Origin: Gammaproteobacteria bacterium
Lineage (GTDB): Bacteria; Pseudomonadota; Gammaproteobacteria; SZUA-229
Reading direction: 5' to 3'
Length of the DNA stretch: 64,000 bases
Assembly (NCBI GenBank): GCA_030148865.1
Contig: JASBSR010000027.1
Span: 1 to 64,000, forward strand
Part shown: in pieces, positions 17,902 through 62,862 of the stretch
Numbering within the stretch: the stretch's first letter is position 1
Layout of the letters: each line of letters starts with the position of its first letter
Translations under genes and position numbers: made by a program
Notes under the pieces: model-generated
Database searches by the model: none
What the model was told of the DNA's origin: nothing
Seen by the model: the letters and a program-made list of their open reading frames with translations, nothing else

Positions 17902-18735
17902 ATGTTGAATGTTCCACAAAGTGAAATCGAAGAGAACGTTGCCGTTGCGCTACGCGAAGACATCGGCAGCGGCGACCTCACCGCAGACTTAATACCAGAG
18001 ACTGCCATCGCGCTCGCCAGTGTGATTACTCGCGAAGACTGCACGTTCTGCGGCATGGACTGGTTCGAAGAAGTCTTTCGCCAGATCGACGAAGAAATTT
18101 TTATCGAATGGAATGTTGACGACGGTGAACAGGTCGAAACCAACGACACACTGTGCAGTCTCAGCGGGCCAGCGCGCTCGATTCTCAGTGGTGAACGCAC
18201 GGCATTGAATTTTATCCAGACGCTCTCCGCCACCGCGACCCGTGCCGCGCAATACGCAGTGGCTGTTGCTGGCACCAGTGCCACGGTACTCGATACCCGC
18301 AAGACTATCCCAGGACTGCGTCTCGCGCAAAAATATGCAGTCTCCTGCGGTGGCTGCCAGAATCATCGTATCGGACTGTATGACGCTATCCTGATTAAAG
18401 AAAACCACATTGCAGCTCTTGGTTCGATACCGGGTGCAGTCGATGAAGCGCGTTTTTTGCATCCTGACACCAGGATCGAAGTCGAAGTCGAAACTCTTGC
18501 CGAATTTGAACAGGCGCTGGCCACCAACGTTAACCGGATACTGCTGGATAATTTTTCGCTGGACGATTTAACAACCGCAGTACAGCGCAACAATGGCAAA
18601 ATCGAACTCGAAGCCTCGGGTGGCGTGACCCTGGAAAGCATTCGCTCGATCGCCAATACCGGAGTACATTTTATTTCAACCGGGGCGCTGACCAAAGACA
18701 TCCGCGCCATCGACCTGTCTATGCGCTTTATGTAA
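17902..18735 (+). CDS. nadC: Nicotinate-nucleotide pyrophosphorylase (quinolinate phosphoribosyltransferase)
   Basis: NadC converts quinolinate and PRPP to nicotinate mononucleotide in NAD synthesis. The 277-residue protein shows EDIGSGDLTADLIP, SGERTALNFIQTLSATAT, DTRKTIPGLRLAQKYAVSCG and GGCQNHRIGLYDAILIKENH, which are PRPP/quinolinate-site motifs. The C-terminal barrel segment ELEASGGVTLESIRSIA follows. Its stop overlaps the start of the acyltransferase gene (TAATG), so the two are coupled. Confidence 0.96.
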   Translation: MLNVPQSEIEENVAVALREDIGSGDLTADLIPETAIALASVITREDCTFCGMDWFEEVFRQIDEEIFIEWNVDDGEQVETNDTLCSLSGPARSILSGERTALNFIQTLSATATRAAQYAVAVAGTSATVLDTRKTIPGLRLAQKYAVSCGGCQNHRIGLYDAILIKENHIAALGSIPGAVDEARFLHPDTRIEVEVETLAEFEQALATNVNRILLDNFSLDDLTTAVQRNNGKIELEASGGVTLESIRSIANTGVHFISTGALTKDIRAIDLSMRFM

Positions 18736-19496
18736 TGCGCCGGGCACGAATTTTTTATCGCAGCATTCATCTTCTGTTCATCATCCTCGCTGGCTGCCTG
18801 CTCACTGTTTTTTTGCAACGCGGCACTATGCTGCGCCACGGCATGTCGAGCAGAATCACCTGCTGGTGGCATCGCCGGGTACTGGCTGCGCTGGGAATTC
18901 GTCTCAGAGTCACAGGGCAGGCGCTCGACACCCACTGTCTGTATCTCGCCAATCATTTATCCTGGCTGGATATTCACGTTATCGGCAGCCAGCTCCCGGT
19001 GCGCTTTCTTTCCAAAGCCGAGGTTAGACAATGGCCGATCTTTGGCTGGCTGGCATCGCGCGCGGGAACATTATACATACCGCGCGGCAGCAAACACGCG
19101 GCGGCGCGCGCCAGTCACATTATGCAACAGGCGCTGACTACCGGTCAGTCTGTGGTGCTGTTCCCGGAAAGCACAACGAGCGACGGCAATATCAAACGCT
19201 TTCACAGTCGTCTGATGCAAAGCGCGATCGACGCAAACTGCCCGGTGCAGGCGCTGGCACTGCGCTACCCCAATACCGATGGCGGACCGGTGCATGATGC
19301 AGTGTTATACATCGGCGACATACACTTTATGCAATCGGTGAACAACATACTGCGCGCCGATGCCATTGTCGCTGAGCTCAATTTTCTGGACAGTGTGCCA
19401 TCACAAAATAACAACCGCGACCAGCTCGCGCGCTGGGCCGAAACCAGCATCAGGGCTGTACTCGAACCCAACACCACAGGCAGCCGCACTGACTGA
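18735..19496 (+). CDS. 1-acyl-sn-glycerol-3-phosphate acyltransferase, PlsC family
   Basis: A membrane-associated acyltransferase of 253 residues. An N-terminal hydrophobic span (IHLLFIILAGCLLTVFL) is followed by the catalytic NHLSWLDIHV (HX4D) and the glycerol-phosphate motif VLFPESTTSDG. It probably acylates lysophosphatidic acid or a related lipid such as an ornithine lipid; the exact acceptor is not visible. It is the last gene of the argA-nadC-plsC run and faces the metal operon, with only 6 bases between the stop codons and no terminator hairpin evident. Confidence 0.85.
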   Translation: MRRARIFYRSIHLLFIILAGCLLTVFLQRGTMLRHGMSSRITCWWHRRVLAALGIRLRVTGQALDTHCLYLANHLSWLDIHVIGSQLPVRFLSKAEVRQWPIFGWLASRAGTLYIPRGSKHAAARASHIMQQALTTGQSVVLFPESTTSDGNIKRFHSRLMQSAIDANCPVQALALRYPNTDGGPVHDAVLYIGDIHFMQSVNNILRADAIVAELNFLDSVPSQNNNRDQLARWAETSIRAVLEPNTTGSRTD

Positions 19497-37522: not shown

Positions 37523-37891
37523 TTATTTATTCGTTATCGTTATTGGGCTGCCATCGTGCACAGCATCGAGGCGATTCGCTATCAGCACTTCATGACCGAA
37601 AAGCCCACTCAGGATGTCAACTCTGCGCGCACCCGATTTACCCGGGCGCACCATACGAAAACGCGCTCTGCCATTATTCACAACAAAAACACCCGGTACC
37701 GCATTGCGACTTGTCAGCGCTGTTTTGGGTATCGATACCGACAGGTCACCGGTGGAACGCACCGCCACTGTTAACACTTTTCGTTCCAGCCTGGGTAGCT
37801 GCCTTTGATTAGATGCTTCGTTTGCCATCACGGCACCAGTCACGCTCAAACACGCAGTCAGCAGCACTACATATCTCAATCCGATACTCAT
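37523..37891 (-). CDS. Miniature RND periplasmic adaptor (C-terminal domain only)
   Basis: A 122-residue exported protein with a signal peptide (VVLLTACLSVTGAVMANE). The rest matches only the C-terminal membrane-proximal part of RND adaptors: SVSIPKTALTSRNAVPGVFV, then NGRARFRMVRPGKS and RVDILSGLFGHEVLIA. Normal adaptors have 350-400 residues with hairpin, lipoyl and barrel domains, all absent here. The start overlaps the tolC stop (ATGA) and the signal peptide is intact, so this looks like a designed small gene and not debris. It sits 15 bases before the permease. Confidence 0.75.
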   Translation of the reverse strand: MSIGLRYVVLLTACLSVTGAVMANEASNQRQLPRLERKVLTVAVRSTGDLSVSIPKTALTSRNAVPGVFVVNNGRARFRMVRPGKSGARRVDILSGLFGHEVLIANRLDAVHDGSPITITNK

Positions 37892-39234
37892 GGCGCCTCC
37901 ACGGCAGGTAATGCCAGCTCACCGATAGCTAGAGGTAAAGCGCTACGCGCGACATCAAGGTTCAGGACTGCGGTTAATTTTTCAATACGCGCATCGGTGT
38001 AAAGACGTTCTGCCTGCAATAGATCCAGCAAAATAGTCCTGGCCTGACCATAACGTTGTTTAACTAATTCAACCGTACGTTTCGCAGTAGCAACATTGCT
38101 TTCTGCGATTTCCAGTCGCGACCTGGATTCCTGCAGACTGTTATATGCATCACGCACCTGCTTGCGCACAGTTTGTTCCAATGCCTGTAAATGCCACTTC
38201 ACTTCACGCTGCTGAGCAATAGCGGCATCAACTTTTGGGTCGCGCTGGCCATTATAAATATCCATACTAAGCACTCCCATAATACTGGACGAATTATTTT
38301 TCAGGTTCGGCCTGTCGTCATACCAGTTAGTACTTGCCACAATATCGATATTTGGCATACCAGTCGAACGCGCGGCGTCAACCCGCGCACTTACAGCTTC
38401 AAGTTGTGCCCGCACTGCAGCAATGTCTTTACGCGAAGCCATCGACTGTTTTTCATAATCGCTCAATCTCATCTCGATCGGAGCACTGATTGTGGCATCT
38501 GATAATATAAGCTCTGTATCCAGGGCCATCCCCATCTCCAGTTTGAGCGCGTTCAGCGCTGATTTGTATCGCGTCTTCGCCTGCTCGCGCTGAGATTTCA
38601 CTGCGGCCAGACTGACCTGTGCGGCGAGTTTGTCGGATTCTACGATGCGACCCTCATGTGCCAGCCTCGCCGTGGTATCCGCATGGTGTTGCAACGCTGC
38701 CACGGCATCCTCAGCTATCACCAGCCCTTGCCTGGCCGCAAGTGCCATTAAATATGCCCGCGTAGTTTCAAAAGCGGTATATTCGCGTTCGCGTTGATAG
38801 TGCAACTTGCGATTCAACTCAGTGGCAGCCGCATCTTCTTCCTGGGCACTCTGACGACCCCCGGTATATACCGGCCAACGCATGGCTATTTGCGTAAAAT
38901 ATAAATCTGATGAGCCCGGCTGATTGAGCGCTGCAGGATCAAAATCCTGTGTTCTCACCTGACGCGTGTTGAGTTTGTCTGCAAAAGCATCCAGCGGATT
39001 GTCACTCAGACGCGCAGTGTGCGAAAACATTACTCTGGGCAAGTCACCTGCACGACTGGCGCGCAATTGTGCACTGGAGACATTGAGCTGCTGTTCAACT
39101 CCTTTCAGATTTGGGTTATGTTCAAGCGCATGTACAATAGCGGCATCAAGATTAAACGTCTGCGCCTGCAAATAACCACTACCCGTTAGCAGCGCGCATC
39201 CAAGTGTAATATTAAATAGCCATCGAAAAATCAT
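37888..39234 (-). CDS. TolC-family outer-membrane efflux protein
   Basis: A 448-residue outer-membrane factor. A signal peptide (WLFNITLGCALLTGSGYLQA) is followed by FNLDAAIVHALEHNPNLKGV, and the two coiled-coil repeats end with VELVKQRYGQARTILLDLLQ. The ATG at 39234 gives a proper signal peptide; the open frame upstream to 39489 is extra. It is the first gene of the efflux operon (outer-membrane factor, mini-adaptor, permease). It forms the trimeric exit channel. Confidence 0.88.
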   Translation of the reverse strand: MIFRWLFNITLGCALLTGSGYLQAQTFNLDAAIVHALEHNPNLKGVEQQLNVSSAQLRASRAGDLPRVMFSHTARLSDNPLDAFADKLNTRQVRTQDFDPAALNQPGSSDLYFTQIAMRWPVYTGGRQSAQEEDAAATELNRKLHYQREREYTAFETTRAYLMALAARQGLVIAEDAVAALQHHADTTARLAHEGRIVESDKLAAQVSLAAVKSQREQAKTRYKSALNALKLEMGMALDTELILSDATISAPIEMRLSDYEKQSMASRKDIAAVRAQLEAVSARVDAARSTGMPNIDIVASTNWYDDRPNLKNNSSSIMGVLSMDIYNGQRDPKVDAAIAQQREVKWHLQALEQTVRKQVRDAYNSLQESRSRLEIAESNVATAKRTVELVKQRYGQARTILLDLLQAERLYTDARIEKLTAVLNLDVARSALPLAIGELALPAVEAP

Positions 39235-39364: not shown

Positions 39365-42037
39365 CTACTCAAGATAATGTATTTTATTTCGCCCGTCATT
39401 CTTTGCCGCGTAGAGCGCCGCATCTGCTTTTTTGATAATCGTATACAACGAAGTATCTCTATCGGGCACCAATGTTGTAACACCAACACTCATAGTAACC
39501 ATACTGGCTGCTATTGATGTCTCATGCTTATACCCAAGCTTTAGCTTCTCTATATTTTTACGCATTCTCTCAGCCATGATCAACGCTATTGATTTATCAA
39601 CATTTGGCAGAATCACAGCGAATTCCTCACCCCCATAGCGAGCAACCAGATCACTCGATCTTAAAAAGCTCGAACGAATAGCCTCGGCAACTTTCTGCAA
39701 ACATATATCTCCTGCCTGATGACCAAGGCTGTCATTGTATTGTTTAAAATGGTCGATATCACAGAGCATGAGCGTCAGTGGACTCTGTTCGCGACCTAGT
39801 CGACTAATTTCCGCTTCAAGGGTTTCATCAAACTGACGCCGATTAGCGATCCCGGTGAGTGCGTCAGTACGACTCAACAGCCTAAGCTGGGCATTAACCT
39901 CAGCCAGCTTCTGATAAGCCTGATTGACTTCTTCTGTCTGACGTTTTTTTTCGGTCACATCAATTCTCACCGATATATAACGTTCGATTTCTCCAGTATC
40001 ATTTATCACCGGCACGATGGTACTGTCCACCCAGTACAGCTCACCAGATTTACTCAGATTGCATACCTCACCGTGCCAGATCTGGCCACCAGAGATGGTC
40101 TTCCACATCTCGCTGAAAAACACCCGAGAGTGCTTTCCAGAATTAATAATGCGGTGATTCTGGCCAAGCAGCTCTTCCCGTCTATAGCCACTGATTTTAC
40201 AAAACCTGTCGTTAACCTGGGTAATATTACCGGCAGGATCGGTAGTAGACACCAGCGCATGCTGATCAATAGCTCTCAAATAACTGGTAAGCTCGGCCGC
40301 CAGCTTTATTTTTTCTTTGTTCCTGAACTCGGCTTCTCTGGCTAGCCTTAAATCTTCCTCATATTTTTTATGCATTGTAATATCGCGAAAATATACCACA
40401 AGCCCTTCCTGTGTCGGACAGGCGCGGGCCACAAGATATTTCATCGTGGGTCCGTATAGCGCAGTAGTTTCCTGCGCCCTGTATGTAGTGAAGGTTGCGC
40501 GCAACATTTTATAAAACATACTGGTGACATCCGGTAGTGTATCTCTTAAATCATGACCAATCACTTCCTCCGGTTTAATATCCAGCAACGAACCTGAAAT
40601 TCGATTTACATAGGTAACAATCCAGTTCCAGTCAAGCATCAGATAGGCATCATTTGTATTATCCAGAATAATGCTTAATTGCTCCTTTTGTAACTTGAGC
40701 TGTTGTCGTCCGTGCACACGCTCACTGACATCACGCACTACCGCGGTAATTATTCGCTTATCTCCTGCAAAGCTATCACTAAGCGCTATATCTGCCGGAA
40801 AGTGCGAACCATCCTTGCGTCGACCTTCAACTTCTCGACCAATTCCGATTACATGTGGGTCACCTGTTTCCACATACTGCGCTATATAGGCGTCATGTTT
40901 AACCGCATCGGCTTCGGGCATCAGAATAGCAACATTTTTACCAATCACCTCCGCAGCCTTATAACCAAAGATTTTCTCTGCTGCCGAGTTAAATGATTTA
41001 ACAACGCCTCTCTGATCAGAAGTTATAAATCCATCAACCATGTTTTCAATGATCATACTCTGATAGGCTTTGTTTTCGGTCAGGCGTTCAACCACATCGT
41101 TAAGCTCACGATTTTTATGTTCCGCCACTTCCTTCGCCTGTTTTAAATATCGAGTTTGCTCTTTAACTAGCCGTTTAACGCCAGCCAGTTCGTCTGCGTT
41201 TTTTGTATCACGGTAATTAATAGCATAACCTTTGACACCCGTGACAAACGGCATCGTTATTAGCCCTTTAAACCCTTGCCAACGGGGTTCACGAAACTGA
41301 TCCAGACCAATTGTCATAGCCAGCTGACCTGCTTGCGGCTCGGCTTTGTAGGTTCCAAAAATTCGATCCCATAAAGATATATTAAAGCTGAAATTACTGT
41401 TGGTTTCATTCTCCTGGATTGAATGGTGTATACGATGCATTTCCGGAGTCACGAACAACCAGCGCACCATCCGCTCTAGTCCCAGATGAAGGCGAATATT
41501 CGAATGGGTAAACATGGACATCAGATTAAGCACAACCTCAAATACAATCACAACCGCTACTGGCGCACCCAGACCGATAATTAGCGCGCTCTTAATCAAG
41601 ACAGAAATCAGTATTTCCACCGGATGGAAGCGCAAACCAGTACTGACATCACAATCCATATCTGAGTGATGTACTCGGTGAAAACGCCATAATAAGGGAA
41701 TCACATGAAACATGACATGCTGCACATAAATAGCCATATCCAGCAAGATGAATGTGATGAGTCCTTTTATCCACGACGGCAGATCAATATGATTGGCGAA
41801 CCCCCATTGATTCTCTGCCGTTATATAAGCAACACCAATCACAGTACCGGGCACGATGATACGTACAAACACCGCACCAACTACCATCAGCACAACATTA
41901 TTCAACCAGCGCTTGAATTTATTATTTGTCAGTTTGCGCCTGGGAGTCGCCCATTCCCACAACGCAAGCAAACTGAAACCACTGAGAAGCGCACTCAGAC
42001 GCATAGCGGCTTCATATCCATAAGTTGTATCTAGCAC
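39365..42037 (-). CDS. Fatty-acid-hydroxylase-like membrane domain fused to three PAS and a GGDEF domain
   Basis: An 890-residue fusion. Residues 1-235 form a membrane domain with the histidine motifs of the fatty acid hydroxylase/sterol desaturase family: H107-x3-H111, H120-x2-HH124 and H201-x2-HH205. A coiled linker is followed by PAS domains at about 325-440, 445-560 and 580-695. A GGDEF domain at 715-888 has an intact VARYGGEEFAVILP and an RSSD inhibitory site five residues before it, so it should make cyclic-di-GMP. The GTG start at 42037 shares a base with the znuB stop and has GGGAG upstream. The link to zinc uptake is unexpected. Confidence 0.88.
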   Translation of the reverse strand: MLDTTYGYEAAMRLSALLSGFSLLALWEWATPRRKLTNNKFKRWLNNVVLMVVGAVFVRIIVPGTVIGVAYITAENQWGFANHIDLPSWIKGLITFILLDMAIYVQHVMFHVIPLLWRFHRVHHSDMDCDVSTGLRFHPVEILISVLIKSALIIGLGAPVAVVIVFEVVLNLMSMFTHSNIRLHLGLERMVRWLFVTPEMHRIHHSIQENETNSNFSFNISLWDRIFGTYKAEPQAGQLAMTIGLDQFREPRWQGFKGLITMPFVTGVKGYAINYRDTKNADELAGVKRLVKEQTRYLKQAKEVAEHKNRELNDVVERLTENKAYQSMIIENMVDGFITSDQRGVVKSFNSAAEKIFGYKAAEVIGKNVAILMPEADAVKHDAYIAQYVETGDPHVIGIGREVEGRRKDGSHFPADIALSDSFAGDKRIITAVVRDVSERVHGRQQLKLQKEQLSIILDNTNDAYLMLDWNWIVTYVNRISGSLLDIKPEEVIGHDLRDTLPDVTSMFYKMLRATFTTYRAQETTALYGPTMKYLVARACPTQEGLVVYFRDITMHKKYEEDLRLAREAEFRNKEKIKLAAELTSYLRAIDQHALVSTTDPAGNITQVNDRFCKISGYRREELLGQNHRIINSGKHSRVFFSEMWKTISGGQIWHGEVCNLSKSGELYWVDSTIVPVINDTGEIERYISVRIDVTEKKRQTEEVNQAYQKLAEVNAQLRLLSRTDALTGIANRRQFDETLEAEISRLGREQSPLTLMLCDIDHFKQYNDSLGHQAGDICLQKVAEAIRSSFLRSSDLVARYGGEEFAVILPNVDKSIALIMAERMRKNIEKLKLGYKHETSIAASMVTMSVGVTTLVPDRDTSLYTIIKKADAALYAAKNDGRNKIHYLE

Positions 42038-42837
42038 TATTCTCTCCCGGGAAGGCCGCGTAGAACGTGCACCATAAAAAACAGCAAGGCAGCCGCCACC
42101 ACTATCGAAGGCCCGGTCGGCGTATCCCAGCGCATGGAAGACCCCAGACCGGTAACCACTGACAACAGCGCAAACACCACTGCCAGTAAAATCATCTGCA
42201 CAGGCGTGCGCGAAAATAGACGCGCACTCGCCGCAGGGATAATGAGTAGCGCAGTAATTAACAATATACCAACCACATTGATCATCACCGCTATCATCAG
42301 TGCCAGTAGTAACATAAACGCGAAGCGTAATCCTGACACTGAAATACCATCAGTTCGGGCAAGTTCTTCATGCACTGATATTGACAGCAAGCCTGGCCAT
42401 ATACGCCACATCGCAATACTGATCAGAATGACGCCAGCATACATCCAGTACAGCTGGCTGCGACTAATCGCCAGAATATCGCCGAACAGATACATCATCA
42501 TATCAATACCCGGCGTCTGGCGCTGCACCAGAGAAAGCACGATCAAACCCGCTGCCAACGCCGTGTGCGACAGAATTCCCAGCAGAGCATCACTGGAAAG
42601 CTCGCTCTGCTTTTCCAGCCAGAACAGTATCACGGCGAGCACGGCACCGATTAGCGCTACGCCAATCAGCGGCAAAAAGTTCGCGGACAGCGCCAGCGCC
42701 ACACCGAGCAAGGCCGCATGCGCCAGGGTATCACCAAAATATGCCATTCTGCGCCAGACCACGACACAGCCCAGCGGGCCTGCCACCAGTGCCAGCGCAA
42801 TACCGCCGAACAGCGCATTAATAATAAATTCATCCAT
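42037..42837 (-). CDS. znuB: Zinc ABC transporter permease ZnuB
   Basis: A 266-residue ABC-3 family permease with about eight spans. Recognisable parts are ALVAGPLGCVVVWRRMAYFGDTLAHAALLGV near the start (the family signature) and NVVGILLITALLIIPAASAR. It forms the membrane channel for zinc import with ZnuC and ZnuA. It ends in a TAG that overlaps the GTG of the fused hydroxylase/GGDEF gene. Zur control is expected through the box at 44174. Confidence 0.93.
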   Translation of the reverse strand: MDEFIINALFGGIALALVAGPLGCVVVWRRMAYFGDTLAHAALLGVALALSANFLPLIGVALIGAVLAVILFWLEKQSELSSDALLGILSHTALAAGLIVLSLVQRQTPGIDMMMYLFGDILAISRSQLYWMYAGVILISIAMWRIWPGLLSISVHEELARTDGISVSGLRFAFMLLLALMIAVMINVVGILLITALLIIPAASARLFSRTPVQMILLAVVFALLSVVTGLGSSMRWDTPTGPSIVVAAALLFFMVHVLRGLPGRE

Positions 42838-42852
42838 AGATCAACTCCCTGT

Positions 42853-43644
42853 TCATTGCGGGTGCGGATGTTCGTGATGACAACAGTCAGCCGCTGCTCC
42901 CTCCACCACATCACCGCGGATATCATGAGCGTGGTCATGGCGATGCGAATACACTGCCAGCCCGTCCAGCGCACTGCCAAAAATCCGTAGATATTCTGGG
43001 TGCTCACTGACATCTTCGGGGTGACCGGTACAACAAACATGGGTATTCAGACAAACGACCGTATCTGTCGCTGCCATCACCAGATGCAGATCGTGCGACA
43101 CCATGAGTACCGAACAGGCGTGTTTTTCACGCAGCGTCCTGATCAGATGATAGAGGGCCTGCTGACCAATGGCATCGACTCCCTGCGCGGGTTCATCCAG
43201 CACCAGCAGCTCGGGTTTTTTCAGCAGGGCACGCGCCAGCAGAACACGTTGCAATTCCCCGCCAGAAATCGACTGAATCGGTGCTTCGAACACGGCTGGG
43301 GCCTCGACCTCGTCCAGTACCTGCTGCATTTCCGTCACCGAATAATGCCCGCCAAGACCCAAAAAATCGCGCACCCGCAAAGGCAAGGTATCTGCCACCA
43401 TTACCCGCTGCGGAACATAGCCCAGGCGCAAGCCCGGTTTGCGCCTGACCTTGCCTGACTGTAGCGGCGACAGTCCAAGTAATAAGCGAATCAGTGTCGT
43501 CTTGCCAGCACCATTCGGCCCGATCAGAGTCATAATTTTATTCGGCAGCACTTCGAGCGCAATCTCGCTGAGTATCTGGCGACCCCCGATTTGATAACTG
43601 ATACCGCTGCCACTAAGCAGAGCCATCGCGGCGGCGTTATTCAT
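42853..43644 (-). CDS. znuC: Zinc ABC transporter ATPase ZnuC
   Basis: A 263-residue ABC ATPase. Walker A is GPNGAGKT (residues 42-49), the signature is ISGGELQRVLLARAL, and Walker B is LLVLDEPAQGVD. The C-terminal tail is rich in histidine and cysteine (YSHRHDHAHD, then CCHHEHPHPQ), as in other ZnuC proteins, and may bind zinc. The long upstream frame to 43983 runs through zur in another frame. The ATG at 43644 overlaps the zur stop by 8 bases and is preferred; 43626 is an alternative. Confidence 0.92.
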   Translation of the reverse strand: MNNAAAMALLSGSGISYQIGGRQILSEIALEVLPNKIMTLIGPNGAGKTTLIRLLLGLSPLQSGKVRRKPGLRLGYVPQRVMVADTLPLRVRDFLGLGGHYSVTEMQQVLDEVEAPAVFEAPIQSISGGELQRVLLARALLKKPELLVLDEPAQGVDAIGQQALYHLIRTLREKHACSVLMVSHDLHLVMAATDTVVCLNTHVCCTGHPEDVSEHPEYLRIFGSALDGLAVYSHRHDHAHDIRGDVVEGAAADCCHHEHPHPQ

Positions 43645-44131
43645 GCGCAGACTCACAATGCTGACACAAACCCGATATTTCCACCGCCGCGTGCTCCACC
43701 CTGAATCTGAATTCGCCGGCACAGCCCTGCAATGTTTCGAGTACGTCGTGGCTGTGAATTTCCTGCGTGCAGCCGCAACCATTGCAGACCAGAAACACAC
43801 CTTCGTGACTGCGTTGCGGGTGCGCGCAGGCGATATAGGTATTGTTGGTTGCCAACCGGTGCACCAGCCCCTGCTGCTGCAAGAAATCCAGCGCTCGATA
43901 CACCGTCGGTGGCGCTGCAGAACGCCCCTGCTTGCGTAATTCGTCGAGCAGAGCGTAAGCGCCCAGCGGTCGCTGGCCACCACAGATCAGCCCGAGCACG
44001 CTACGCCGCAGTTCGGTAAAACGCTGTTTGCGCTGCGAACATAAGCGCTCAGCCTGGCGAAGCAAATCGCGTACCTGCTGTGACGACGGGCGGGTGCAGC
44101 TCACCTCACCCTGATGCGTGCATTCGGTCAT
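43637..44131 (-). CDS. zur: Zinc uptake regulator Zur (Fur family)
   Basis: A 164-residue Fur-family repressor. The winged helix has GAYALLDELRKQGRSAAPPT and VYRALDFLQQQGLVHRL. Structural zinc cysteines are seen in LVCNGCGCTQEIHSH and near the end in GLCQHCESAHE. It should repress zinc uptake when zinc is plentiful. It heads the zur-znuC-znuB unit and is divergent from znuA across the Zur box. The N-terminus has two extra cysteines (ECTHQGEVSC). Confidence 0.92.
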   Translation of the reverse strand: MTECTHQGEVSCTRPSSQQVRDLLRQAERLCSQRKQRFTELRRSVLGLICGGQRPLGAYALLDELRKQGRSAAPPTVYRALDFLQQQGLVHRLATNNTYIACAHPQRSHEGVFLVCNGCGCTQEIHSHDVLETLQGCAGEFRFRVEHAAVEISGLCQHCESAHE

Positions 44132-44173: not shown

Positions 44174-44188
44174 TGTTACATTATAACA
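44174..44188. promoter_or_regulatory. Zur box between zur and znuA
   Basis: TGTTACATTATAACA is a near-perfect dyad within a longer one (AATGTGTTACATTATAACAT and onward), close to the proteobacterial Zur consensus TGTTATANTATAACA. It lies 43 bases from the zur start and 22 from znuA, so it can control both. Confidence 0.85.
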
Positions 44189-44209
44189 TAACATTTCAGG
44201 ATTTTAACC

Positions 44210-45172
44210 ATGACCGCCCGTATCATCGCTTGCACCCGCCTGTGCCTGCTCCAGCTCTGCCTGTGTTTGACCACCTTATATAGCAGTACCACACTCGCCG
44301 GCCAGGAGGCCGAGACCAGCCCGGATATTCTGGTCAGTATTCTGCCGCTGCAGGCATTGGTCGCCGGCGTTATGCAGGGTGTGGCCCAACCCGGATTATT
44401 GCTGGACAGCGGCCAGTCACCCCACCACGCCAGTCTGCGGCCTTCACAAATGCGCGCCATCAGGCAAGCAGATGTATTATTCTGGATCGGCCCGCAGCTG
44501 GAAACATTTTTACCGCGGGTACTCGGTGGCTCAGGCGCGAACGTGAACGCCATCGCCCTGCTCGCAAACCCGCAACTACGCACCCTGGCGTTGCGCAGCG
44601 CAGACCACGAACACACTGCCGGCACTGGCAGTGGGGCATCGACCATCGACCCCCATATTTGGCTGAGCAGCCACAATGTTGCCATCATGATCGACCAAAT
44701 CGCACAACAGCTGATCGCTCTGGATCCAGCACACGCCGCCCGTTACCGCCGCAATCAGGCCACCATGCGCGACAAAATTAAAGCCCTGCAGCAGCAGCTC
44801 AGCCAGCAATTCAAAGCCGGCACACGCTATATCAGCTATCACGACGGGTACCAGTATCTGGAGCAGGAATTTGGCCTGCAGCTGGCCGGCAGCATTAGCC
44901 AGAATGATGAGATGCAGCCCGGCATACGACACCTACATGAACTGAGACGGGTATTACAGCAGCAGGCCGTCCATTGCGTGGTCTACGACGCACCTGTGCG
45001 ACCCGCGCTGGTCGACAGCCTGCTGCAAGGCAGCTCGGCGCACGCCGTCGAACTTGATGCGCTAGGACTGCGTCTGCCCACGCAACAGCGTGACTGGTTC
45101 ACACTGATGCAGCGTCTGGCCAGTAATTTTAGTGAGTGCCTGAAGCCCGCAAAGCCGACAGAAATAAACTAG
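44210..45172 (+). CDS. znuA: Zinc ABC transporter substrate-binding protein ZnuA
   Basis: A 320-residue periplasmic zinc-binding protein. A signal peptide (LCLLQLCLCLTTLYSSTTLA) ends near residue 30. The ligand histidines are in SGQSPHHASLRPSQ, TIDPHIWLSS and ISYHDGYQYLEQEFG. The charged histidine-rich loop is short (SADHEHTAG). It is divergent from zur-znuCB across a Zur box, so it should be made under zinc limitation. Confidence 0.92.
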   Translation: MTARIIACTRLCLLQLCLCLTTLYSSTTLAGQEAETSPDILVSILPLQALVAGVMQGVAQPGLLLDSGQSPHHASLRPSQMRAIRQADVLFWIGPQLETFLPRVLGGSGANVNAIALLANPQLRTLALRSADHEHTAGTGSGASTIDPHIWLSSHNVAIMIDQIAQQLIALDPAHAARYRRNQATMRDKIKALQQQLSQQFKAGTRYISYHDGYQYLEQEFGLQLAGSISQNDEMQPGIRHLHELRRVLQQQAVHCVVYDAPVRPALVDSLLQGSSAHAVELDALGLRLPTQQRDWFTLMQRLASNFSECLKPAKPTEIN

Positions 45173-56495: not shown

Positions 56496-57494
56496 ATGAC
56501 ACGCTCGGCCTTCGCCGACGTCAAGCAGGAACCAGCAACACCCATGAGCAGCTCAGACCTATCTATTATCATCGTCGATGATCTGCAATTCAGTCGAATT
56601 GTGGTCAAAACCGCCCTCAAAAAAGCCGGTTATAACGATGTGCGTATGGCCGATAGCGCCATCGAGGCGCTGCGCATGCTGGACGAAAAACCCGCTGATG
56701 TGGTGCTCGCCGACTGGATGATGCCAGAAATGGATGGCCTCGAACTTGCCGACCAGATCCGCCTGCGCGACGAAGAAAACGGTGCTTACACGGCGATTAT
56801 TCTATTCACTGCCAATGAAGGCACTGAATATCTGGTAAAAGCTTTCGATCACGGTGTTGACGACTACCTGCGCAAGCCACCGATTCCAGATGAACTCGCC
56901 GCCCGGGTTAACGCTGCTGCCCGCATCGCCGCGATGCAGAACGATTTACTGGAAACCTCGCGGCAGATGGAATCCAAAATTCGCCGCCTTGAAGAAGTCG
57001 CACTCATTGACCCGGTGAGCGGTGCCGGCAACCAGCGCCTGCTCAGCCAGGAACTGCGCGCACACCTGCTGGAAGCCTCGTCGCGCAAAGGCGGTGTCTG
57101 CCTCGCCATGCTCGAACTGGATCAGCTAAAGAACATTAGCCAGGAGCACGGCGCTGAGATCGAACACGAAATTCTGCTCAGCCTGCATCGCAGATTGCGT
57201 CGCACTGTGCGCCCCACCGACACTATCACCCGACTCGATGACAATATTTTTGCCATCATCATGCACCACACCAATCCCGAGTATTACCGGGAAGATTCTT
57301 TACAACGTATCGTGACCGGCATTAGTCAGCGCCCGCTGAAAACCAGTATTGGCAATCTCGAGGTGACTGCGTCCATGGGCGTGCAGTACTACAATGGCGA
57401 AGACAGTATGATTTCAGCGCGCGAAATGGTGGCGCTGGCGCAGGACAAACTCAGCATGGCCAGTGCCAGCGCTGATGGCAGTATCGAATTCTAA
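56496..57494 (+). CDS. Response regulator with degenerate GGDEF domain
   Basis: A 332-residue protein. The receiver domain (about 22-140) has acidic pocket D28-D29, phosphoacceptor D73 in VVLADWMMPEMDG and lysine in DDYLRKPPIP. A coiled linker leads to a GGDEF-like domain whose signature reads RLDDNIFAIIMHH where RxGGDEF is expected, so cyclase activity is doubtful; it may bind nucleotide or partner proteins. The start could also be the ATG at 56544 (MSSSDLSI), directly before the receiver. No histidine kinase is adjacent. Confidence 0.83.
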   Translation: MTRSAFADVKQEPATPMSSSDLSIIIVDDLQFSRIVVKTALKKAGYNDVRMADSAIEALRMLDEKPADVVLADWMMPEMDGLELADQIRLRDEENGAYTAIILFTANEGTEYLVKAFDHGVDDYLRKPPIPDELAARVNAAARIAAMQNDLLETSRQMESKIRRLEEVALIDPVSGAGNQRLLSQELRAHLLEASSRKGGVCLAMLELDQLKNISQEHGAEIEHEILLSLHRRLRRTVRPTDTITRLDDNIFAIIMHHTNPEYYREDSLQRIVTGISQRPLKTSIGNLEVTASMGVQYYNGEDSMISAREMVALAQDKLSMASASADGSIEF

Positions 57495-57813
57495 GCCTGA
57501 TTAATCACGCCAAAAAACGATTGCACCCTTAAGCGAACGCGTGGTAAGGAATATTGGCAACGCATGTACAAAGCACACAGAATTTAGCGGCCAATCAATT
57601 TTAGCCAGGCTTACGGACACTTCATTAAGTGTGATAATGCCCGAAATCAGGAGCCTGCTCAATTTGTGACACGAACGCCCGCAGGTGAAAAATGAATACA
57701 GAACGCCTCTATAGTTGGTATTTCTGCCAGTAAACAATATTTACACTGAATATTTAAAATATCTGAGATTATTTACCCCAATTTTCTCAGGATACCAGGC
57801 AAAGGTGAGCATA
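57495..57813. other. Intergenic region before the GAF-EAL gene
   Basis: A 319-base AT-rich stretch. A 78-residue minus-strand frame (57501-57737) has no recognisable motif or good ribosome site, and I do not call it. The right end carries AGGTGAG before the ATG at 57814. No repeat or clear promoter was found. Confidence 0.55.
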
Positions 57814-59046
57814 ATGAAAAACGCCATATTGACAGAATTGGTCCTGGCGAATGCCAGGAATGATAATGCTTCAATCACTGAAAATTTACAGCCTATTTTA
57901 AATGTTATTCGTTCACACCTCGGTATGGACATTGCTTTTATTTCAGAGTTTTATCAAGGTGAGCGTGTTCTGAAGTATGTGGATTCAAAAGATACATCAA
58001 CCGCTATTCAGGTTGGTGATTCTTGCCCTCTTGAAGAAACGTACTGTCAAAAAATCGTCGCAGGAGAATTGCCTGAGCTCATTGCTGATACTGCGCTTAA
58101 CCCTGTCGCCAGTGGGCTTGCAATTACAGATGAGTTGTCGATAGGAAATTATCTAGGCGTACCCATTCGAGTTTCAGACGGGAGCGTCTATGGAACATTT
58201 TGCTGTTACAGCCACAAACCTGACCGCACCCTGGGAGAACGCGACCTGGCCTTATTGCGAGCATTTGCAGATTTAGCGGGTAAACAAATCGACAGCACAC
58301 TTAAAACCCAGCATGAACAGGCTGAGATAACAGAACGAATTATCTCGGTTCTTGAACCATCAAAGATTAACATTGTTTACCAACCAATTTATAATCTAGC
58401 GGAAGAAAGAATCTCCGGGTTTGAATCACTCGCCCGCTTTGCTACAACGCCCTACCGTACACCAGATATATGGTTTAATGAGGCAGCCCAGGCAGGACTC
58501 GGTGAGGAACTCGAAATGATGGCTATCAACAAAGCCATTGAAGGCCTTGATCAGTTCCCGAACGACATCTACATCTCGCTAAACATCTCACCAGAATACA
58601 TTATAAACGGGGCGGCAACTCGCATTCTTGAAAATCTTCCCGCGGAACGAATTGTATTGGAAATTACTGAACATGCGCGCGTTGCTGATTATTCTGACTT
58701 TCGAGCAGCGCTTGAGCCACTTCGTAGCAATGGAATACGGCTTGCGGTTGACGATGCAGGAGCGGGTTATGCCAGCTTTCAGCATATCCTTGAGCTGGGC
58801 GCGGATATCATCAAACTCGACATCAGCCTCATACGGAACATTCATGCCGACCCAGCGCGGCGAGCACTCGCAGCATCACTAATTGCGTTCGCAACAGAAA
58901 CAGGAAGTGAGGTCATCGCTGAGGGTGTCGAGACCAGGCTCGAACTTAAGGAACTGCGATGCCTTGGCGTAAATAAAGTGCAGGGATACTTTATTGGTCA
59001 TCCTGCGCCAATTACCGAGGCCTTAGCATTGATGTCTGACTCATAA
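57814..59046 (+). CDS. GAF-EAL cyclic-di-GMP phosphodiesterase
   Basis: A 410-residue cytoplasmic protein. A GAF domain (about 5-165, GDSCPLEETYCQKIVAGELP and NYLGVPIRVSDGSVYGTFCC) is joined to an EAL domain (about 180-408). EAL appears as FESLARF. NISPEYI, LEITEHA, VDDAGAGYASF, IKLDISLI, IAEGVETRLE and QGYFIGHPAP keep the metal-binding and catalytic residues, so it is probably active. AGGTGAG precedes the ATG. The GAF ligand is unknown. Codon use is more AT-rich than in the upstream genes. Confidence 0.87.
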   Translation: MKNAILTELVLANARNDNASITENLQPILNVIRSHLGMDIAFISEFYQGERVLKYVDSKDTSTAIQVGDSCPLEETYCQKIVAGELPELIADTALNPVASGLAITDELSIGNYLGVPIRVSDGSVYGTFCCYSHKPDRTLGERDLALLRAFADLAGKQIDSTLKTQHEQAEITERIISVLEPSKINIVYQPIYNLAEERISGFESLARFATTPYRTPDIWFNEAAQAGLGEELEMMAINKAIEGLDQFPNDIYISLNISPEYIINGAATRILENLPAERIVLEITEHARVADYSDFRAALEPLRSNGIRLAVDDAGAGYASFQHILELGADIIKLDISLIRNIHADPARRALAASLIAFATETGSEVIAEGVETRLELKELRCLGVNKVQGYFIGHPAPITEALALMSDS

Positions 59047-59216: not shown

Positions 59217-60089
59217 ATGAATAACACAAGATCCAGTCTGACAACAGGACGCTTGATGTTGGCCACTGTACTCTTTGCAGGCGCAGCATGGTTCACTCCC
59301 CTGCGCCTGGCCCAGGCGAGCGAAGCGCCCATCCAGATTAATTTTGGCGTCGTGCCGCAACAATCGGCCAGCAAATTGGCGCGTCTGTGGACACCCGTTC
59401 TCAATTATCTGGGTGAGCAGACCGGTTACCATTTTCTGTTCAGGACAGCGGCAGATATTCCCACCTTCGAGCACCGCCTGGCACTTGGGGAATATGGCAT
59501 GGCCTACATGAATCCGTATCATTATACGGTGTTTCACCGCGCACCGGGGTATCGGGCGTTTGCCAGGGAAAAGGACCAGCGGATTAAGGGCATTGTCGTA
59601 GTGCGCAAGGACAGCCCCTATCATTCACTTCGTGAATTAAAAGGACAAACCCTGGCCTTCCCGGCACCGGCAGCATTTGCCGCTAGTATCCTGATTCGTG
59701 CCCATTTAAAAAACGCAGGAATCCCCATCACAGCCCAATACGTCTCATCACATGACTCGGTCTATCTCTCTGTGGCGAAGGGATTGTATCCCGCTGGGGG
59801 AGGAGTCGCCCGCACCTTCAAAAACATGAGCCCGGCAACCTCCGACCAGTTACGTATTCTTTGGGTCACCCAATCCTATACACCCCATGCCATTGCCGCA
59901 CACCCGAGCGTTTCTAATGATGTTGTGGCACACGTGCAACAGGCCATGCTGGCCATGCACACGGATCCCCGCGGCAAGGCCTTGCTAAAAGCAATTAATT
60001 TCAAGGGCATTGTGGCCGCAGAGGATGCCGATTGGAATGACGTGCGCGCACTCGGCATCGAGTTGCTGGATGGTCCCGGTAAAAAATAA
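59217..60089 (+). CDS. PhnD-like periplasmic binding protein
   Basis: A 290-residue exported solute-binding protein of the phosphate/phosphite/phosphonate (PhnD) superfamily. A signal peptide covers about residues 1-35. The fold motifs [34 protein letters not shown] and [20 protein letters not shown] are visible. No ABC permease or ATPase is nearby. Instead it is 1 base from a membrane PAS-GGDEF-EAL gene, so it is likely a sensor that signals through that partner, as NspS does with MbaA (analogy). The ligand is unknown. Confidence 0.83.
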
Positions 60090-60090
60090 T

Positions 60091-62862
60091 ATGTCATTTC
60101 GTTTAAAAACCATCCTGGGTGTTGCAAGTATTGAAGCGGTCCTGCTGATCATTCTGGTTGGGACCAGCCATAAATTCATGTATGACTCCAACGAAGAAGA
60201 GTTGATCAAGCGTGCTTCAACAACAGCCACTCTGTTCGCGACAACCAGCAAAAATGCAGTTTTGGCCACCGACCTGGCTTCGCTTGATGAATTTGTTCGC
60301 GAAGTATTGAAAAACCCGGGACTCGTGTACGCTCGGGTCACCGATGCGGATAACAATGTGCTGGTACAAGGCGGCAACTCACAAGCCCTGGCACGCCCCT
60401 TTGTCAGTGACCATAATCTTGAAAATCTTGAAGATGGTATCTTCGATGCCTATGCCAAAATCACAGAGGCCGATACAGTCTATGGTCGCGTAGAACTGGG
60501 GCTTTCTGTCACAAAAACGCTTCAAGTCCTTGCCGAGGCCCGTCAACGGACATCCTATATTGCTATTCTGGAAATGGTAATGGTTGCGGTGTTCTCATAC
60601 CTGCTCGGAACCTATCTCACACGTCAATTGAAAGATTTAAAAACTGCCTCAGAGCGGATTGCCAGTGGCCATATGGGGTATCAAATTCAGGTCAGTGGCA
60701 ATGATGAACTGGCCCAGGCCGCACGTGCATTCAACCAGATGTCATGCCACCTTCAGCAATTTAATACCGAGCTTGATAATCAGGTAGCGCAACGCACCGT
60801 GGAATTATCAAGAGCCCAGCAACGTCTGGAAACTATTCTGAACAACACCGCAGAAGGCATTATCACGTTTGACACAAAGGGCACAATCGAATCCTGTAAC
60901 CAGGCCGCTGAAAGACTGTTTGGTTACCCTGCCAATGAGCTGCTTAGTAAAAACATTCACCTCCTGATCGGCGCAGGTAAAGACCAACAACCACAAAGTA
61001 ATTACCTCAGATACTTTCTTAAAAATGAATTTCACCGGCTGGCCGGTCATCAAGGTGAAGTCACGGGACAGCACAAGGATGGTACGAATTTTCCCGTGGA
61101 ATTAAAGATTAGCAGCATGCTCCTGGAAGATCGCCAGATGTATACCTGTCTGATGTCTGATATCAGTCAGCGCAAGCAGAATGAGGAAAAGCTGCATCAA
61201 TCAGCCATCGTATTCGAAAGCACCAAAGAAGGCGTGATCATCACCGATCCCACTGGCGCTATGGTCGATGTCAACCGGGCCTTTAGTGAAATCACCGGCT
61301 ATAGCCGTGATGAAGTCATCGGCAGAAACCCCCGGCTGCTTGCCTCGGGCAGACACGATGACATGTTTTATACATCGATGTGGGCGACTATTTCCAGTAT
61401 CGGTTACTGGCAGGGGGAGCTCTGGAATCGGCGCAAGAATGGTGACATCTTCCCGGAGTGGCTGAACATCAGCGCCGTCCAGGATGCAAGCGGTGCAATC
61501 AGCCACTATGTGGGTGTGTTTTCAGACATCAGTGCCATCAAGGAAGCAGAACAGAAGCTGCATCATCTCGCCCATCACGACCCGCTCACAGACCTGCCAA
61601 ACCGCCTGCTTTTCGAGGCTCGGCTGGAGCATGCCCTGAAACGGGCAATGCGAAATAATACCAAAGTCGGGGTTTTGTTTCTCGACCTGGATCGATTCAA
61701 GAATATCAACGACTCCCTCGGCCACCCCATTGGCGATCAGATCCTGGGCATGGTGGCCCAACGCCTAACTCGCTGCCTACGCGGCGGAGACACTCTGGCG
61801 CGGTTAGGCGGTGATGAATTTACCATCGTCGTTGAAGATATTAATGAAGACCAGGATGCCGCCGTGGTCGCAGAGAAACTGCTGGGTTCATTCAGGACAT
61901 CTTTTCTGCTGGAAGATAATGAAATCTTCGTTACAGTCAGCATTGGCATAGCCCTCTACCCTGCTGACGGTCTTGATGTAACCAGCCTCGTAAAACACGC
62001 CGATACCGCCATGTATCGAGCCAAGGAACAGGGACGTAATAACTATGAATACTATACTGCAGAACTCACCCTGTCTGCATTCGAACGCCTAACGCTGGAA
62101 ACCGCATTGCGCCATGCGCTGGATAATAATGAGTTTCTACTTTATTACCAGCCACAGGTCTGTCTGACCACCAGTAACGTTGTGGGGGTCGAGGCATTGA
62201 TCCGCTGGAAGCACCCTGAAATGGGTCTGGTTTCTCCGGCCACGTTCATCCCCCTGGCGGAAGAATCGGGGCTTATCCACGCAATTGGAGAATGGGTTCT
62301 ACGTACGGCCTGTTTCCAGGCCAAGGCATGGCAAACGGCTGGTCAACCGTTGCGTGTTTCGGTAAACCTGTCGGGCCAGCAAATTACCCACAGCCCTATT
62401 CTGGAAACAGTAAGCAGGGTACTTGAAGAAACCCAGCTGGAAGCCAGTTTTCTCGATCTGGAGATCACCGAAAGTTTCTTTCTTGGCCACACTGAACATG
62501 AAATAGCTATATTGGTTGCACTCAAGACATTGGGTGTAACCTTGTCTATCGATGATTTCGGGACAGGCTATTCATCACTGAGTTATTTAAAAAATCTGCC
62601 AATCGACACGCTGAAGATTGACCAGTCATTCGTACGCGATATCACGCAAGACAACAATGATCCCGCTATTGTCAGGGCAGTCATCGCCCTCGGGCATAGT
62701 ATGCAGTTGAATGTCATCGCGGAAGGTGTTGAAACAGTGAAACAGCGGGAATTTCTACGAGCCGAAGGTTGTGATGAATATCAGGGCTACCTCTATAGTC
62801 CACCGCTACCTGCTGAGGAATTGGAGGCTCTGCTACAAAAAGCCATCAGCGGCAGCGACTGA
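60091..62862 (+). CDS. Membrane sensor: periplasmic region, HAMP, two PAS, GGDEF and EAL
   Basis: A 923-residue bifunctional cyclic-di-GMP protein. Spans at about 8-26 and 155-177 enclose a periplasmic domain. HAMP (178-235), PAS at about 245-365 and 370-490, GGDEF (495-660) with an intact LARLGGDEF and an RGGD inhibitory site, and EAL (670-920) with [22 protein letters not shown] and [10 protein letters not shown] follow. Both enzymatic signatures look intact. It begins 1 base after the PhnD-like gene, so the binding protein probably governs its periplasmic domain. Confidence 0.9.

Follow-up and report, generated by a model that had tools for sequence, protein, structure and literature searches.

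A fatty acid hydroxylase-type membrane domain fused to PAS and GGDEF domains behind znuB: a candidate signalling input at a lineage-specific gene address

INTRODUCTION

In a 64,000-nucleotide stretch of gammaproteobacterial DNA (hereafter the window, meaning the whole stretch that was analysed), a single gene joins a fatty acid hydroxylase-type (FAH) membrane domain to PAS domains and a GGDEF domain, and it lies directly behind the zinc uptake gene znuB. Is zinc what this protein is about, or does zinc describe only the place where the gene now stands? An initial annotation had favoured zinc, proposing a lipid-modifying or lipid-sensing domain that feeds cyclic di-GMP (c-di-GMP) under zinc control. 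We examined the domains of the protein, its relatives and the neighbourhoods of their genes.

RESULTS

Architecture of the fusion protein

The fusion gene (39365..42037, minus strand) is one open reading frame of 890 aa, with a GTG start codon at 42035-42037 and a TAG stop codon at 39365-39367, both on the minus strand. The GTG shares one base with the TAG of znuB (42037-42039), and GGGAGAG stands just 5' of it; thus, the start overlapping the znuB stop with a ribosome site of its own, as annotated initially, is upheld. The annotated domain composition was also recovered: all Pfam domains of the protein (FA_hydroxylase, three PAS and GGDEF) exceeded their cut-offs and were far beyond chance, including FA_hydroxylase (PF04116) at residues 93-229 (99.1 bits, cut-off 31) and GGDEF at residues 724-885 (175.7 bits, cut-off 23.8).

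The membrane FA_hydroxylase-type domain (residues 1-285, with the Pfam core at 93-229; 41183..42037, minus strand) contains hydrophobic segments, ten conserved histidines and a clade-specific His83. A linker that is probably helical (residues 286-328; 41054..41182, minus strand) leads to the FixL-type PAS1 (residues 329-440; 40718..41053, minus strand), which is followed by PAS2 (residues 455-570; 40328..40675, minus strand; Pfam PAS), the FAD-type, MmoS/Aer-like PAS3 (residues 595-700; 39938..40255, minus strand) and the GGDEF domain (residues 720-886; 39380..39880, minus strand). The cyclase signature reads GGEEF (residues 802-806) and the I-site RSSD (R793xxD796, residues 793-796), in agreement with the earlier description of an active-looking GGDEF domain with an I-site. 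Single-sequence AlphaFold prediction gave unusable models for the FAH and PAS-GGDEF portions (pLDDT 45 and 35, respectively).

Occurrence of the fusion in sampled genomes

The family sample comprised 54 genomes, this being the sole family sampled in its order. An FA_hydroxylase domain was found at E up to 0.001 in 45 of them, mostly in standalone proteins of approximately 290 aa, and FAH-GGDEF fusions were found in seven: the window genome, four genomes of the genus coded g10 (about 610 aa, with one PAS domain) and two of the genus coded g9 (about 890 aa, with three PAS domains). The class sample (369 genomes) added one fusion, in G136 (L042:6659-8365), in which the FAH domain is joined directly to HisKA-HATPase without a PAS domain and is 62% identical to that of the window protein; it is possible that this is an orphan lipid- or oxygen-responsive histidine kinase. 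In the phylum sample (399 genomes), 142 genomes had an FAH domain and no fusion was seen, one search having scored the best two candidates per genome and long open frames having been checked separately. Two smaller genome samples yielded no additional fusions. An additional contig scan returned a single locus, a weak partial match with 27% identity over 144 residues. Long frames in G362, G208, G115, G120, G137, G592, G612 and G663 were rejected as fusions, being standalone FAH proteins with spurious upstream extensions, and G102 and G756 likewise proved to be standalone FAH proteins. Altogether, the search of roughly 800 genomes yielded eight with the fusion, a count drawn from genome samples and not from a census, and the fused set consists of eight sequences, seven of them from one family. 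The GG[DE]EF signature and the RxxD I-site are kept in all seven GGDEF fusions.

The window genome also codes for a standalone FA_hydroxylase protein elsewhere (G000:C34:116037-116870), which is 46% identical. This gene (L035:8035-8904), like those of L036-L040, adjoins a gene for a VTT (DedA-like) protein, and an ArsR-rhodanese regulator stands beside the standalone FAH gene in several relatives (checked with Pfam in L036); the three form a conserved operon-like group.

PAS domains resembling oxygen and redox sensors

The best solved match of PAS3 was MmoS (3ewk, E = 1.5e-48), followed by Aer and NifL. Its residues His628, Trp645, Asn660 and Arg691 constitute the FAD-type set, in which Trp, His and Asn have been named for FAD binding and Arg has been described for Aer and MmoS (PMC10468136, PMC9668731). 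Every one of the seven GGDEF fusions retains a PAS3-type domain; all seven have the Trp, His and Arg, and six have the Asn. PAS3 has the residues of the MmoS/Aer/NifL sensors and is predicted to bind FAD; the output and the membrane domain differ from those of these sensors.

PAS1 matched FixL best among solved structures (4e-30). As in the heme-PAS sensors FixL and DosP, it aligns a heme His and a distal Arg: His381 corresponds to heme His200 of FixL, and Arg401 to the distal Arg220. However, FixL Arg206 is replaced by Gln, and PAS1 is absent or has lost its His in most fused relatives. The domain is missing in the four g10 fusions; the proximal heme His occurs in the window protein and its G035 counterpart, and is lost in G037. 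Since PAS1 is missing in four fusions and its heme His is lost in a fifth, it is dispensable, and would represent an optional oxygen input.

The fusion gene in the zinc uptake unit of the window

The fusion gene had been assigned to the zinc operon, and its place at the end of a compact zur-znuC-znuB unit is borne out by spacings that range from an 8-base overlap to a 15-base gap. The unit consists of a zur-like FUR family regulator gene (43637..44131, minus strand; Pfam), znuC (42853..43644, minus strand; Pfam ABC_tran; the likely ATG is at 43642-43644 and the listed frame begins further upstream), znuB (42037..42837, minus strand; Pfam ABC-3) and the fusion gene, with zur and znuC overlapping by 8 bases, znuC and znuB separated by 15 bases, and znuB and the fusion gene overlapping by 1 base. 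On the other side of the fusion gene lies a TolC-type outer membrane protein gene (37888..39234, minus strand), with a probable start at 39234. The znuA gene (44210..45172, plus strand; Pfam) is divergent from zur, and the 78-base gap between them contains a Zur-box-like palindrome (TGTTACATTATAACATAACA, 44174-44193, without assigned strand). Over 44175-44197 it agrees at 18 of 23 positions with the Zur-box consensus used here, and it is the best such site in the whole window; its score was reached in 2 of 10,000 Markov simulations of the intergenic region. Six relatives were checked for a Zur-box-like site of the same consensus, and none had one.

Because the gene lies behind znuB and is translationally coupled to it, its expression would probably rise in zinc shortage, through Zur. 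The local role of the protein might then be to change c-di-GMP at zinc scarcity via the zur promoter, with sensing secondary. The 1-base overlap, the tight packing of the four genes and the palindrome upstream of zur are consistent with this reading, and Vibrio cholerae offers a precedent in ZpdA, a Zur-repressed phosphodiesterase that is also inhibited by Zn2+ (PMC12607878). However, the relatives checked lack a site of that consensus, and the gene is at znuB in the window lineage only, so the position may be neutral. We regard this role as a serious prospect that falls somewhat short of probable; it is compatible with the explanation that we prefer (see Discussion).

The window contains two further gene groups of note. 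A run of c-di-GMP genes on the plus strand encodes a response regulator-GGDEF protein (56496-57494), a GAF-EAL protein (57715-59046) and a HAMP-PAS-PAS-GGDEF-EAL protein (60010-62862). Genes of the nadC type (quinolinate phosphoribosyltransferase) and for an acyltransferase lie at 17902-19496 (plus strand), about 23 kb from znu, whereas in many members of the family relatives of this pair stand convergent to znuB; the distance in the window indicates that the znu region has been rearranged.

Constraint and clade-specific residues in the hydroxylase-type domain

The histidine motifs had been described as complete, and the window protein indeed has all ten family histidines (H107xxxH111, H120xxH123H124, H138, H178 and H201xxH204H205). 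They are invariant in all eight fused and all 25 standalone sequences. Identities of the fused FAH domains to that of the window protein are 42-66%, and 76 of 285 columns are invariant among the fused domains; were these columns spread at random, the chance that all ten histidines would be invariant is approximately 1e-6. With identities down to 42% and only 76 invariant columns, the invariance of the histidines reflects constraint and not recent common origin. The dN/dS of the FAH domain was approximately 0.08-0.11, rough ratios given the high dS, and in g10 pairs dN was lower in the FAH domain than in the GGDEF domain. The FAH domains of the fusions are under purifying selection. Such conservation shows, at the level of sequence, that the domain is needed, a need that sensing and catalysis would impose alike.

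A tree built from 33 domains separates the eight fused FAH domains from the 25 standalone ones by a branch with support of 100/97; the two g9 sequences are long branches whose exact place is uncertain. The fused clade covers two orders and two outputs, GGDEF in seven proteins and HisKA-HATPase in G136. His83 is present in 8/8 fused versus 1/25 standalone sequences; Lys42, Glu188, Ser/Thr125 and Thr/Ser177 are further residues characteristic of the fused clade, the last two standing beside conserved histidines. These clade-specific residues suggest that the site has been altered or has gained a ligand, and together with the constraint they speak against an inert anchor. Standalone proteins of the FA_hydroxylase/sterol desaturase family (about 290 aa) share the Pfam domain and the ten histidines, at 42-51% identity; in contrast to the fusions, they lack signalling domains, occupy a separate branch, nearly all lack His83, and their genes have the conserved ArsR-rhodanese/VTT neighbourhood.

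By profile, the named enzyme closest to the domain was OlsE (NF052566), which hydroxylates ornithine lipid; its score of 94.8 bits across residues 69-241 falls far short of the NCBIfam equivalog cut-off of 475. The yeast fatty acid 2-hydroxylase Scs7/FA2H belongs to the same broad superfamily and has a similar style of histidine cluster, and the initial annotation had carried its dizinc site over to the window protein. We found no related solved structure with the FAH domain sequence or with a 17-sequence profile, so this inference cannot be transferred; moreover, OlsE is the nearest enzyme, and standalone proteins with the same histidines lie in non-zinc neighbourhoods.

We considered whether the FAH domain is a working lipid hydroxylase, with PAS-GGDEF as a tethered separate output or local regulator, such that one protein would yield both the signal and the lipid change. 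In favour of this, fused and standalone proteins do not differ in the ten histidines or in the motif residues around them, and purifying selection is strong. However, the window genome already has its 46% identical standalone homologue, the clade-specific changes (His83, Ser125, Thr177, Glu188) include some beside the histidine cluster, and an input role accounts better for the histidine-kinase fusion within this clade. In addition, no OlsB-type acyltransferase (PF13444) was found in the genome, which is 93% complete; ornithine lipid hence does not suggest itself as the substrate. A bifunctional enzyme is therefore unlikely in our judgement. It is very improbable that the domain is a mere membrane anchor left from a chance fusion: rarity would fit (8 of roughly 800 genomes), but all ten histidines are invariant at 42-66% identity, dN/dS is close to 0.1, and the clade is monophyletic across two orders.

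Zinc linkage is confined to the window lineage

Among the 30 znuB loci of the family that we fetched, the fusion gene lay behind znuB in the window only (0/29 others). The other FAH-GGDEF fusion genes lie behind msrB (four, g10) or yaaA (two, g9), and the FAH-histidine kinase gene behind what we read from the sequence as a parC-like gene; none of these seven is linked to znu. Zinc as an explanation of the protein thus finds no support in the six other FAH-GGDEF fusions, in the FAH-histidine-kinase fusion or at the 29 other znuB loci, and synteny rules it out as a conserved theme. The initial annotation had named, as evidence that would tell against it, homologues without zinc linkage and with loss of the histidine motifs; homologues without the linkage were found, whereas their motifs are invariant.

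Three g10 genomes (G044, G040 and G042) have, immediately behind znuB, the TolC-type gene that neighbours the fusion gene in the window; the contigs of G044 and G040 extend further and show the RND gene as well. The wider neighbourhood shared by the window and g10 includes znuC, znuA, a YjbQ-like gene and more. The znuB-TolC adjacency in three relatives indicates that the fusion gene is an insertion between two old neighbours, and that it arrived at znuB in the window lineage. In G043 (L088:7013-8223), unrelated genes lie between znuB and the TolC gene, so the same spot took up other genes too; one of them reads like an FTR1-type iron permease gene.

The g10 fusion gene lies between msrB and an arsenite-methyltransferase-like gene. 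The window genome has the same msrB neighbourhood, but with the gene for a REP-associated tyrosine transposase in the slot (scoring 79.2 bits where the cut-off is 80). The transposase gene (L084:6737-7582; G000:C5) is exactly at the slot of the g10 fusion. No REP palindromes were found near the insertion or the transposase.

The start codon of the fusion gene overlaps the upstream gene by 1 base at znuB in the window, and as ATGA at msrB in G044, G043 and G042; the gene thus recurs in translational coupling with unrelated genes. Its location at znuB, msrB, yaaA or parC varies by lineage. Both msrB and yaaA are oxidative-damage genes, and their common relation to oxidative stress may be a coincidence.

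From these comparisons, zinc is best read as a feature of the gene's address and not of the protein: a local accident, or no more than a rewiring of expression at this site. It is thus highly improbable that the FAH domain binds zinc at a dizinc site as in Scs7 and gates the cyclase, as a znu-operon switch devoted to relaying zinc to c-di-GMP, since the place as last gene of zur-znuC-znuB with its Zur-box-like site, and the zinc-controlled c-di-GMP enzymes known elsewhere (PMC12607878; DgcZ, PMC8262984), are outweighed by the lack of linkage in every other fused homologue and at 29 other znuB loci, by the insertion between genes that are direct neighbours in relatives, by the same histidine set in standalone proteins outside zinc loci and by the absence of sequence similarity to solved FA2H structures.

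DISCUSSION

We observed the architecture, the motifs, the clade, the selection on the domain and the relocation of the gene. The explanation that we prefer, and that we hold to be moderately probable, sees in the protein a multi-input diguanylate cyclase bound to the membrane, in which an FAH-type di-metal domain has been recruited as a signalling input beside redox/oxygen PAS domains, the zinc link being positional. The N-terminal domain would bind two metals and sense O2, a lipid or its own turnover; the signal would pass through the linker and the oxygen- or redox-type PAS domains (a heme-like PAS1 and an FAD-like PAS3) to the GGDEF domain, which would make c-di-GMP with product inhibition at the I-site. 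Oxygen or redox state is the likely theme of the signal. The protein belongs to a monophyletic lineage of putatively signalling hydroxylase domains feeding GGDEF or a histidine kinase, and its gene landed behind znuB.

The novelty attached to zinc control in the initial annotation stands in part. We found no description of an FAH-GGDEF fusion, whereas zinc-linked control of c-di-GMP is known from ZpdA, from the CZB-domain cyclase DgcZ of Escherichia coli (PMC8262984) and from znuABC of Erwinia (PMC7705223). ZpdA and DgcZ are c-di-GMP enzymes tied to zinc, as the fusion gene is by position, and both lack an FAH domain. In the literature searched, drawn largely from outside subscription journals, we found no description of an FAH-type hydroxylase as an input to a cyclase or kinase; the matching passages of three papers in which both terms occur (PMC12078273, PMC4465626, PMC8406957) contain nothing on such a fusion. 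The known relatives (OlsE and the standalone family, MmoS, FixL and WspR-type GGDEF proteins) each match one part. The nearest precedent in principle is the ammonium-transporter fusions to a histidine kinase or GGDEF (PMC5764959; PDB 8qj3), in which a membrane protein with another job serves as input; there it is a transporter, in contrast to the oxygenase-type domain of the FAH fusions.

It is by their input domains that diguanylate cyclases and histidine kinases are known; in the literature searched, an oxygenase-type lipid hydroxylase is undescribed among these. We propose tentatively, as a broader idea that may prove wrong, that FAH-type domains founded a class of intramembrane sensor, in which a di-metal oxygenase site with a clade-specific histidine would report oxygen, lipid state or its own turnover to a cyclase or a histidine kinase. 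A monophyletic group with two outputs offers defined residues, the ten histidines and His83, for asking if an enzyme fold has turned into a membrane sensor. If the proposal is true, the state of membrane lipid or of oxygen would be tied directly to c-di-GMP.
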